64,000 nt of DNA from Megasphaera sp. NM10 (lineage in GTDB: Bacteria; Bacillota; Negativicutes; Veillonellales; Megasphaeraceae), in NCBI RefSeq assembly GCF_000417505.1, contig NZ_APHY01000022.1, forward strand, positions 34-64,033, written 5' to 3'. This document shows, one piece after another, positions 12,788 to 59,358 of the stretch. Made by a program: the position numbers and the translations under genes. Below the pieces are notes generated by a model. The model was given only the letters and a program-made list of their open reading frames with translations, was not told the DNA's origin and did no database searches. The number at the start of each line of letters is the position of its first letter. Position 1 is the stretch's first letter.

Positions 12788-13034
12788 AAAAAAAGCTCTC
12801 GTCCTCAAGGGACGAGAGCATAACTCACGTGGTTCCACCCTAGTTCACCGGAAAACCCGATGTACTCAAGCGCGATAACGGGGCGGCCGGGACCCCCTAC
12901 TTACTTCGGGAATCCTGCTCCAAGGCGGTAACTTGCCAGACTTTATAAAGCACTCTCACCATCGTGCCTCTCTCTGTAATAAAGGAGCTATCAAGTGTTG
13001 TCCTTTTCAAAGCATCTTACATATCTCTATGTAT
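12788..13034 (-). ncRNA. T-box riboswitch, thrS leader
   Basis: The minus-strand leader carries the invariant T-box AGGGTGGAACCACG (rc of 12827-12840) followed by the terminator stem GCTCTCGTCC and GGACGAGAGC with a T-run. Upstream is a Stem I with the distal signature AGAGAGGCACGATGGTGAGAG and a base stem GCTCC/GGAGC. In the position expected for the specifier loop the RNA reads TTACCG, so ACC (12927-12929), a Thr codon, is the candidate specifier. Uncharged tRNA-Thr would stabilise the antiterminator and allow thrS transcription. Confidence 0.92.
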
Positions 13035-50807: not shown

Positions 50808-50945
50808 AAAAGAAAAGAGGCGCTGCCTCCAAGCTGCGCCTCAGTCATAATGATATCTTTCAGGAATAGCCTGTAGGAATTGGCACCTTACCTTAGGCAG
50901 GTTGCCGCAGCGTCATCGGGCCCGTCCCTCAGCTGCTCTCGATAT
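50808..50945 (-). ncRNA. SAM-I riboswitch (S-box) with terminator
   Basis: The minus strand shows the S-box core in order: GAGAGCAGCTGAGGGAC, GGCCCGATGA, CGGCAACC, AAGGTGCCAATTCC, and the closing GAAAGATAT, with P1 formed by ATATC and GATAT (50941-50945, 50852-50856). A terminator stem GAGGCGC with GCGCCTC (50817-50842) and a T-rich tail follow. Bound SAM would favour termination before brnQ. Confidence 0.93.
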
Positions 50946-50974
50946 AACTTATGAAATTTGTCTGTATTGGTGTT

Positions 50975-57188: not shown

Positions 57189-58028
57189 CTATTCTTTCAT
57201 GGCTTTGACGACTTCCGGGTCTACGGCGAAGCCGTGGGCTTCGTCGGGGAAGCTGCGGTCCTTGACATCGTGGATGTACCGGCCTACGGCATCGACGATG
57301 GTCTGATGGAGATCGGCATAGGTCTTGACGAATTTCGGGCGGAAGCCATTGCTCATGCCCAGGAGGTCCGTGCAGACCAGGACCTGGCCATCGGTGCCGT
57401 TGCCAGCCCCGATGCCGATGGTAGCCGCCGTATGCAGGGCTTTGGTGATTTCCGTGGCGATATCTGTCGGGACACATTCCAATGTGATGGCGAAGGCGCC
57501 GGCTTCTTCCAGCTTCAAGGCGTCGGCAATCAGTTGCTTAGCCGTTTCGCTGTTCTTGCCCTGGACGCGGAAGCCGCCGAGCTGATGGACGGACTGCGGC
57601 GTCAGGCCGATGTGGCCGACGACGGGGATACCGGCCGTCGTCATGGCTTTGACGGCTTCGCAGACACTGGCGCCACCTTCGAGCTTGACGGCATCGCAGC
57701 CCGTTTCTTTCATGAGCCGGCCGGCATTGTGCAGGGCCTGCTGGGTGCTTTCCTGATAGCTCATGAAGGGCATGTCGCCGACGACCAGAGCCCGTTTGAC
57801 GCCGCGGACGACAGCCGCCGTATGGTGGATCATATCTTCCATAGTCACCGGCAGTGTCGACGTATGACCCATGACGACATTGCCCAGGGAATCGCCGACA
57901 AGGATCATGTCGATACCGGCTTCATCGACGTTCTGGGCCATGATGTAGTCATAGGCCGTAATCATGGAAATCGGCGTGCCTTCCTGTTTCATTTTCTTAA
58001 TGGTCAGATTGGTTACTTTCTTGTTCAT
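57189..58028 (-). CDS. panB: Ketopantoate hydroxymethyltransferase
   Basis: PanB adds a hydroxymethyl group from methylene-THF to 2-oxoisovalerate, the first committed step of pantothenate synthesis. The 279-residue product has ITAYDYIMAQNVDEAGIDMI, VGDSLGNVVMGH, VKLEGGASVCEAVKAM and VGHIGLTPQSVHQLGGF. The ATG at 58028 follows AAGGAG and overlaps the upstream gene by 32 bases. The pan-motif leader upstream supports control by pantothenate status. Confidence 0.96.
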   Translation of the reverse strand: MNKKVTNLTIKKMKQEGTPISMITAYDYIMAQNVDEAGIDMILVGDSLGNVVMGHTSTLPVTMEDMIHHTAAVVRGVKRALVVGDMPFMSYQESTQQALHNAGRLMKETGCDAVKLEGGASVCEAVKAMTTAGIPVVGHIGLTPQSVHQLGGFRVQGKNSETAKQLIADALKLEEAGAFAITLECVPTDIATEITKALHTAATIGIGAGNGTDGQVLVCTDLLGMSNGFRPKFVKTYADLHQTIVDAVGRYIHDVKDRSFPDEAHGFAVDPEVVKAMKE

Positions 58029-58893
58029 GGTGAACTCCTTCCGCCATCGCAAGGATTCTTGTCAGCGTGTCATGCTGTTTCTCTGTAATCGTTTCGTTTT
58101 CTAAGGCTAAGTCTGCAGCGGCACAGCCAAAAGCACAATAGGGCTGGAGCCATTTCTCCGGCATGACGGCCAGGTGTTTGGCAACGGTCCCGGCATCTCC
58201 GCGGGACACAGGGCCGGTCAAAGCCGTCTGCCACAGCGGACGCTGGCGGACATTGTCCATCGTCCCTTCGACGAGGGGCCGCAGCGCCTGGGATGCAGCG
58301 CCGGCACTGCCGGTCCAGCGGCTTATGAGCTTCTGGGCAATGGCCAGGGCTGTCACGACGTAGTTGGAGCAGAAGCAGGCCGCAGCATGATAGAGCATGC
58401 GGTCTTCAGGGGGTACGAAAAAAGGCGTACTGCCCAAAGTCCGGACCAGATCTGCCGCAACGGCCTTGGCCCGTTCATCACCATCGACGGCCATGTAGAT
58501 TCCCTTCAGGCGGTCTGCCGAAGGTTCGGCAAAGCTTTGCAGCGGATGAAGGCTGCCGACAGGATACCCCAACCGTGAAAGGGGCTCAAGAGGCGATAAA
58601 TCCATAGCTCCACTGCAGTGAAATATACAGGTCTGAGGCGGCAGCGCATCCCCTGTCAGGGAAGCGGCCAATTCCCGGCTAACGGGAGCCAGGGCATCGT
58701 CGCGTACTGTGAGCAGGAGGACATCGCAGTGCCGTGCGAGTTCAGCACCGTCGGTATAGGCAGCAGCATGGAGGCGGCGGGCCATTTGACGTGTATGTTC
58801 TTCTGTGGAACAAAGGATTCCTTCGACATCGGAAGGAAAAGCTAATACAAAAGAAGCGCCGACTCTGCCGGCGCCGATAATACCTAAACGCAT
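57997..58893 (-). CDS. Rossmann/DUF2520 dehydrogenase in the pantothenate operon
   Basis: The roughly 298-residue protein opens with a dinucleotide-binding motif (MRLGIIGAGRVGASFVLAF) and has a helical C-terminal DUF2520 domain (HAAACFCSNYVVTALAIAQK). It lies first in the operon, overlapping panB by 32 bases and directly behind a pan-motif RNA. From this position it is a strong candidate for an alternative ketopantoate reductase (the step after PanB); PanG of Francisella is such an enzyme, but I cannot verify that this protein belongs with it. The ATG at 58893 follows GAGGGAG. Confidence 0.8.
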   Translation of the reverse strand: MRLGIIGAGRVGASFVLAFPSDVEGILCSTEEHTRQMARRLHAAAYTDGAELARHCDVLLLTVRDDALAPVSRELAASLTGDALPPQTCIFHCSGAMDLSPLEPLSRLGYPVGSLHPLQSFAEPSADRLKGIYMAVDGDERAKAVAADLVRTLGSTPFFVPPEDRMLYHAAACFCSNYVVTALAIAQKLISRWTGSAGAASQALRPLVEGTMDNVRQRPLWQTALTGPVSRGDAGTVAKHLAVMPEKWLQPYCAFGCAAADLALENETITEKQHDTLTRILAMAEGVHHEQESNQSDH

Positions 58894-58905
58894 GATAACT
58901 CCCTC

Positions 58906-58936
58906 AAAAAAAAGCGCATTCCTCTCGGGAATGCGC
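58906..58936 (-). terminator. Leader terminator of the pantothenate operon
   Basis: The stem GCGCATTCC with GGAATGCGC, a 5-base loop and T8 lies just before the ribosome site of the DUF2520 gene, so it acts as the expression platform of the upstream RNA. Confidence 0.85.
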
Positions 58937-58961
58937 GTAAAAAGCCTACGTTTACAAGAAT

Positions 58962-59055
58962 TCGTCCCGGTCTTTCGATCCAAGCGATATGCTATGAAAT
59001 TATGATAATAGTTGACCCGGATTTTTTACGGTACGGATCCCAAAAGATTCCGTCC
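58962..59055 (-). ncRNA. Tandem pan-motif RNA upstream of the panB operon
   Basis: Two 26-nt hairpins (59030-59055 and 58962-58987) share one architecture: an outer stem of 2-3 bp, a bulged A on the 3' side, exactly 5 bp, a bulged A on the 5' side, 2 bp, then the loop (TTTTGG or GAAA). Hairpins with two bulged adenosines, often in tandem ahead of panB/C/D, define the candidate pan regulatory RNA. An outer pairing (GATTCGG with CCGGGTC) can enclose the first hairpin. The ligand is not established. Confidence 0.8.
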
Positions 59056-59128
59056 AACCCGAATCACATGTACAGGATACTACATTTGTGAAACTTTTAC
59101 CAATAACTTTTAAGAATAGAGTATGATA

Positions 59129-59236
59129 GTGGTTTGTGGCTCGTGGCTCGTGGCTCATGGCTCATGGCTCGTGGTTCGTAGCTAGTGGCTCGTAAAAGCA
59201 CTAAGTATTAGCCACGAACAACTAGCCACTAGCCAC
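59129..59236. repeat. Heptamer repeat cluster upstream of the panB operon
   Basis: Runs of CGTGGCT/CATGGCT with 7-bp period occupy 59133-59192, and complementary units (CACGAAC AACTAGC CACTAGC CAC) lie at 59212-59236, so the arms can pair. It is the longest run of this repeat type in the window. Confidence 0.7.
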
Positions 59237-59281: not shown

Positions 59282-59358
59282 TGGTGGGCGGTAATGGATT
59301 CGAACCATCGACCCCCTCGATGTCAACGAGATACTCTAACCAACTGAGCTAACCGCCC
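59282..59358 (-). tRNA. tRNA-Val (anticodon GAC)
   Basis: This 77-nt cloverleaf has acceptor GGGCGGT pairing with ACCGCCC and an encoded CCA end. The D arm is GCTCAGTTGGTTAGAGT, the anticodon stem is TCTCG/CGAGG around loop TTGACAT (anticodon GAC, codon GUC), and the T arm contains GGTTCGAATCC. A terminator follows. Confidence 0.96.

Follow-up and report, generated by a model that had tools for sequence, protein, structure and literature searches.

The pan motif (RF01749) was published in 2010 by Weinberg et al. (PMC2864571) and consists of stems, usually in tandem, that carry two conserved bulged A residues apiece and are located before pantothenate (vitamin B5) synthesis genes. From the simple doubled stem, its discoverers suggested that it binds a dimeric protein (PMC2864571). 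In the open-access papers searched, only the 2010 study and one annotation paper bore on this question, and no report was found of a ligand for the pan motif or of a riboswitch for CoA or pantothenate. A 2024 mBio paper on CoA synthesis in B. subtilis did not mention a riboswitch, and a 2022 review called the absence of any CoA riboswitch puzzling (PMC9971707).

Transcription-attenuating riboswitches, for example SAM (RF00162), resemble pan leaders in placing an element in the 5' leader ahead of an intrinsic terminator and the ribosome site, and an alternative pairing is also predicted in most pan leaders. Compared with the SAM type, pan has two separate small hairpins, no complex junction or pseudoknot, and a ligand that is only putative. 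The coat protein of phage MS2 binds a hairpin with 5 bp, a 5' bulged A, 2 bp, and a loop, a plan that the pan hairpins share. The MS2 hairpin is read by a protein dimer; compared with this operator, pan has a second bulged A (3' side), variable loops, two hairpins, and no known protein.

Anatomy of the Pan Element

The window (the whole stretch of analysed DNA, 64,000 nucleotides from Megasphaera sp. NM10) carries the following features of the pan leader and its operon.

58958..59056, minus strand: whole pan motif, RF01749 (46.7 bits, model positions 1-92, full)
59029..59056, minus strand: pan hairpin 1, whose 5' and 3' bulged A residues are 59048 and 59032
58988..59028, minus strand: inter-hairpin linker, 41 nt (24-72 nt in relatives)
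58962..58987, minus strand: pan hairpin 2 with GAAA loop, whose 5' and 3' bulged A residues are 58979 and 58965
58906..58936, minus strand: intrinsic terminator, 9-bp stem 58936-58914 and eight-U tract 58913-58906
58899..58905, minus strand: Shine-Dalgarno GAGGGAG, immediately 3' of the U-tract, with ATG at 58893
57997..58893, minus strand: DUF2520/Rossmann protein, probable PanG-like ketopantoate reductase, 298 aa (PF10728, PF10727)
57189..58028, minus strand: panB, ketopantoate hydroxymethyltransferase (PF02548 2.3e-119, TIGR00222)

Hairpin 1 (59056-59029), on the minus strand, reads UGG-ACGGA-[A]-UC-UUUUGG-GA-UCCGU-[A]-CCG and hairpin 2 (58987-58962) reads UCG-CUUGG-[A]-UC-GAAA-GA-CCGGG-[A]-CGA, with the bulged A residues in brackets. 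Both follow the order 3' bulged A, 5 bp, 5' bulged A, 2 bp, loop, with only standard pairs, and a direct reading of the letters agreed with the positions and anatomy of the original prediction. That prediction had described two different sequences on one plan. The plan is indeed identical, but the bulged A with the UC/GA inner pairs is conserved in both hairpins, so the sequences are not wholly different.

The leader scored 46.7 bits with the Rfam pan covariance model, above the gathering cut-off of 36.2 bits (E 6e-5 for the entire library and the window). Every testable published feature was present, including the tandem arrangement with its 41-nt linker, and 58958-59056 is a genuine pan motif with no difference from the published class in the element itself. 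Together with the Pfam assignments of the downstream genes (DUF2520 3.1e-34; PanB 2.3e-119), the Rfam match bore out the proposal of a tandem pan motif ahead of a DUF2520-panB operon. At its end, the DUF2520 gene overlaps with the start of panB. PanG features (Rossmann-like and DUF2520 domains, linkage to panB) were all present in the DUF2520 gene, and its family and its place before panB suggest a PanG-like function. No consensus sigma-70 site came up when the leader was scanned for promoters.

An array of about eight GTGGCTC heptamers (59136-59193) followed by about four TAGCCAC (59209-59236), which are roughly the reverse complement, is situated between the pan leader and the tRNA gene at 59285-59358 (minus strand). 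From its letters, this array could form a long imperfect hairpin. The window also contains a T-box leader (12805-13019, minus strand, 107.3 bits) and a SAM riboswitch (50850-50948, minus strand, 82.2 bits), both above the Rfam cut-off.

Conservation and Covariation

The pan motif was found in 16/17 genomes of the family, 26/61 of the order, and 116/299 sampled from the phylum. The copy in the window is thus one more member of a published motif and an ordinary sighting. Both hairpins and all four bulged A residues could be parsed in 50 of 60 Rfam-detected loci. In these 50 loci, 97.2% of hairpin 1 cells were paired, compared with 74.2% with partners shuffled, and 96.6% of hairpin 2 cells, compared with 84.1% after shuffling; as the 60 loci were chosen by the covariance model and the parse takes the best hairpin, this excess is partly built in. 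Changes on both sides of a pair were seen in 150 of the 500 cells of the hairpin 1 test. Linker length ranged from 24 to 72 nt among the relatives, and the loops varied in length and sequence.

The original prediction had staked itself on a covariance-model match and on bulged A residues conserved in other Megasphaera. The match was present, and all four bulged A residues were kept in 7/7 Megasphaera-type panG-panB leaders. Its claim of selection on RNA structure was supported by the covariation and by hairpin pairing across relatives.

The folding energy of the window leader was unremarkable (z −1.5), so the evidence for the element is its conservation and not its stability. An energy this ordinary would suit hairpins that arose by chance, or a terminator that sits unregulated between two transcription units; set against the covariance-model match, the covariation, and the conserved gene context, this explanation is almost certainly wrong.

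Terminator and Antiterminator Pairing

Terminators were detected in 48/60 leaders, and in none of the eight ECF leaders of the set. For the 5' arm and loop of each terminator, we searched the leader for the best 24-nt partner. In 38/48 leaders, hairpin 2 supplied this partner through its 3' strand and tail. The leaders' own antiterminator pairs averaged −12.3 kcal/mol, compared with −10.1 ± 0.38 for swapped pairs, and 0/5000 permutations were as low. This difference amounts to 5.7 standard deviations, in a swap test that leaves sequence relatedness uncontrolled. Individual antiterminator z-scores averaged only −1.2. The letters of the pair vary by clade, as in ACAGAGGG/CCUUCUGU and ACGAAUGCG/CGCAUUUGU.

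The leader in the window showed a weak antiterminator of 5 bp (CGGGA/UCCCG, −9.0 kcal/mol) with a z-score of −0.5, and 27% of the other segments searched paired better. RNAfold proposed the linker and hairpin 1 as rival partners. The antiterminator at this locus is only putative, as no strong partner was found and other partners paired equally well. The description of the locus as a complete candidate switch held for its anatomy, terminator included; the antiterminator pairing was its weak part.

Read from the base pairing, the pan leaders suggest an OFF polarity. In most leaders the 5' arm of the terminator is predicted to find its partner in the 3' strand of hairpin 2 and its tail, so closing hairpin 2 should free the terminator. 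The reading we prefer, with a probability of roughly 0.6, is a pan attenuator that turns B5 genes off when the pathway product is plentiful. An effector, or a protein carrying it, would bind both bulged-A hairpins and keep hairpin 2 closed. The 3' strand and tail would then be unavailable, the terminator would form, and panG-panB would remain untranscribed. When the effector is scarce, the same strand and tail would occupy the terminator's 5' arm, and transcription would read through. The analysis showed the motif, its conservation and covariation, the terminators, the gene set, and the presence in genomes without PanB/PanC; from these we infer the effector, its mode of binding (direct or via a protein), and the OFF polarity.

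Pan-Type Elements in the Same Genome and Their Operons

The same genome carries another Rfam pan motif, which scored 57.7 bits and has its own terminator, before a BASS-family transporter and panC. The best curated match of this transporter was PanS (293 bits, under that model's cut-off of 400). PanS has been linked to the transport of ketopantoate and pantoate, and binding of pantoate is known for a related BASS protein (PMC10645422). A third pan-type element (C7:49734-49835) lies directly before an ECF transporter S component. With our own model it scored 37.3 bits, while it lies below the reach of Rfam, and its hairpin 1 is degenerate. One genome therefore holds three pan-type elements, which cover both synthesis and uptake. 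PanD (PF02261), the aspartate decarboxylase, was not found in this genome, though PanB and PanC are present, and it occurred in 6/17 family genomes.

Across the pan loci, the downstream genes included panG-panB, panB-panC, panG-panC, panC followed by a PanD-like gene, and BASS-panC. Further operons were birA-ECF-coaX, an ECF pair with coaX behind it, and an OPT-like transporter ahead of a type II pantothenate kinase, so that pantothenate kinases of type III and type II occur in some pan operons. The PanD, OPT, and BirA labels were read from sequence, with Pfam confirming BirA in one locus. The OPT-like transporter and type II kinase follow the pan motif of L075 (G251:C27:12091-12175).

In a complete genome of the same genus without PanB/PanC, the single Rfam pan motif (L009/L064, G004:C2:1533242-1533336, 55 bits, with terminator) stands before an e(P4)-family acid phosphatase, which suggests salvage of phosphorylated B5 compounds. 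Megasphaera-type panS leaders have a conserved CUUUUGCC stretch between the terminator and the Shine-Dalgarno, as observed in leaders L001, L003-L011, L014, and L015 (BASS/PanS-panC and related).

Pan-Type Leaders of the ECF Pantothenate Transporter

Unlike the 60 Rfam loci, the panT leaders were retrieved by protein homology. An alignment of eight ECF proteins yielded 80 loci from named genomes, of which 79 were usable. A pan-type hairpin 2 adjoined the Shine-Dalgarno GGAGG in 62/79 loci (4.75 expected), and hairpin 1 was also present in 46/79 (0.65 expected); the expectations came from shuffles that held the Shine-Dalgarno in place. In a subset of 30 loci, 15 of 19 pairs showed changes on both sides, exceeding 500/500 shuffles and all slid controls. 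The bulged A residues were invariant in this subset, partly because the scan demanded them.

These leaders differ from the Rfam pan motif in several respects. They have no terminator, and hairpin 2 adjoins the Shine-Dalgarno instead. Where the Rfam motif has its single 3' bulged A, they usually carry an internal loop (A/AA or A/AG), and most of them score under the Rfam cut-off, which was reached by only 11/40 panT loci tested. Carriers above it include Megasphaera micronuciformis, M. paucivorans, Anaeroglobus geminatus, Colibacter massiliensis, Dialister micraerophilus, Anaerospora hongkongensis, and Clostridium hydrogenum. In the panT leaders the tail is the Shine-Dalgarno itself, so that a closed hairpin 2 would block translation with the same polarity.

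A covariance model built from the panT leaders gave matches in 56/61 Veillonellales genomes. All 21 inspected matches of the order were before an ECF gene. Among 11 further phylum matches inspected, nine were before an ECF gene and two were Rfam pan motifs on other operons. The only solved relatives of the panT protein were 4rfs (4e-22), which we take to be the L. brevis ECF-PanT cited by the 6zg3 paper, and 6zg3 (8e-14). The 6zg3 structure is ECF-PanT (PMC7755397), and by these nearest solved relatives the S component after the variant leaders is probably PanT.

Two R1 matches about 1.1 kb apart, each before its own panT copy, were seen at L196 (G035:C19), and G038 and G039 likewise have two R1 matches about 1.1 kb apart per genome. 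A panel of Clostridia panT leaders (L155, L156, L157, L163, L166, L167, L172, L178) have altered hairpin letters (GCUGU-A-UC...GA-ACAGC-A-GC) and keep the bulged-A plan and the Shine-Dalgarno contact; some of this panel have only one clear hairpin.

The Effector

PanB and PanC were searched across the Veillonellales genomes, and 24 were without both. A pan-type element was present in 22 of these 24, in eight by Rfam's own model; a few of the 24 genomes are below 90% complete, and some of the absences may be gaps. By the known route, a cell that lacks PanB and PanC can make use of neither ketopantoate nor pantoate, which makes these two compounds unlikely signals. They are products of the enzymes of the window operon (PanB, and probably the PanG-like reductase), and the original prediction had listed both among its four ligand candidates; in view of the 22/24 genomes, a riboswitch for either is very improbable. 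The distribution argues that the pan element senses B5 or something made from B5, such as coenzyme A, and not the earlier building blocks.

A direct riboswitch for pantothenate would shut down uptake and synthesis when the vitamin is abundant. Pan elements precede genes for both synthesis (panB, panC, panG, panD) and uptake (panT, panS), and they occur where only uptake exists, which fits such a switch. The kinases in some pan operons fit it poorly, as shutting off a kinase fits high CoA better than high pantothenate, and we consider it quite unlikely. Given the pantothenate kinases in some pan operons, a signal from downstream of the kinase, for example CoA, appears most economical. CoaA, the CoA-inhibited type I kinase, was above cut-off in only 6/299 genomes. 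For the preferred attenuator, the effector would be pantothenate or a downstream product, with CoA as our favoured guess. The broader proposal, that pan-type leaders including the panT variant form one CoA-responsive RNA switch class for B5 synthesis, uptake, and phosphorylation, is tentative and, as a whole, rather unlikely.

RNA or Protein Recognition

The RNA may have no pocket of its own. A dimeric RNA-binding protein that senses a CoA-pathway metabolite could grip both bulged-A hairpins, as the proposal of the discoverers and the similar plan of the MS2 hairpin would lead one to expect. The same small site (bulged A, UC/GA) occurs twice with variable loops and a 24-72 nt linker, which is expected for a flexibly spaced dimer. 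These features suit a protein no less well than a pocket for a metabolite, in a nearly even balance, and the variable linker does not favour one compact aptamer. The difficulty is the protein itself. The pan operons examined hold enzymes, transporters, and, in some, BirA and have no recurring RNA-binding gene that could be a candidate, and a protein serving an element that spans many families would need a wide distribution. We judge this explanation to be a serious contender at slightly under even odds. It would rival direct binding only, and the OFF-switch geometry of the attenuator would be unchanged.

Implications for Vitamin B5 Regulation

Neither the ECF variant nor the constraint on the ligand was found in the papers searched, and a prior mention is possible. 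The panT variant is widespread, probably translational, and largely uncatalogued. Its leaders are short, with a simple ribosome-site read-out, and are easier to test than terminator-type leaders. The presence of pan-type elements on panT in bacteria without PanB and PanC removes two candidate ligands and suggests pantothenate or CoA. If the pan class is CoA-responsive, it would be the CoA riboswitch that has been noted as missing (PMC9971707).
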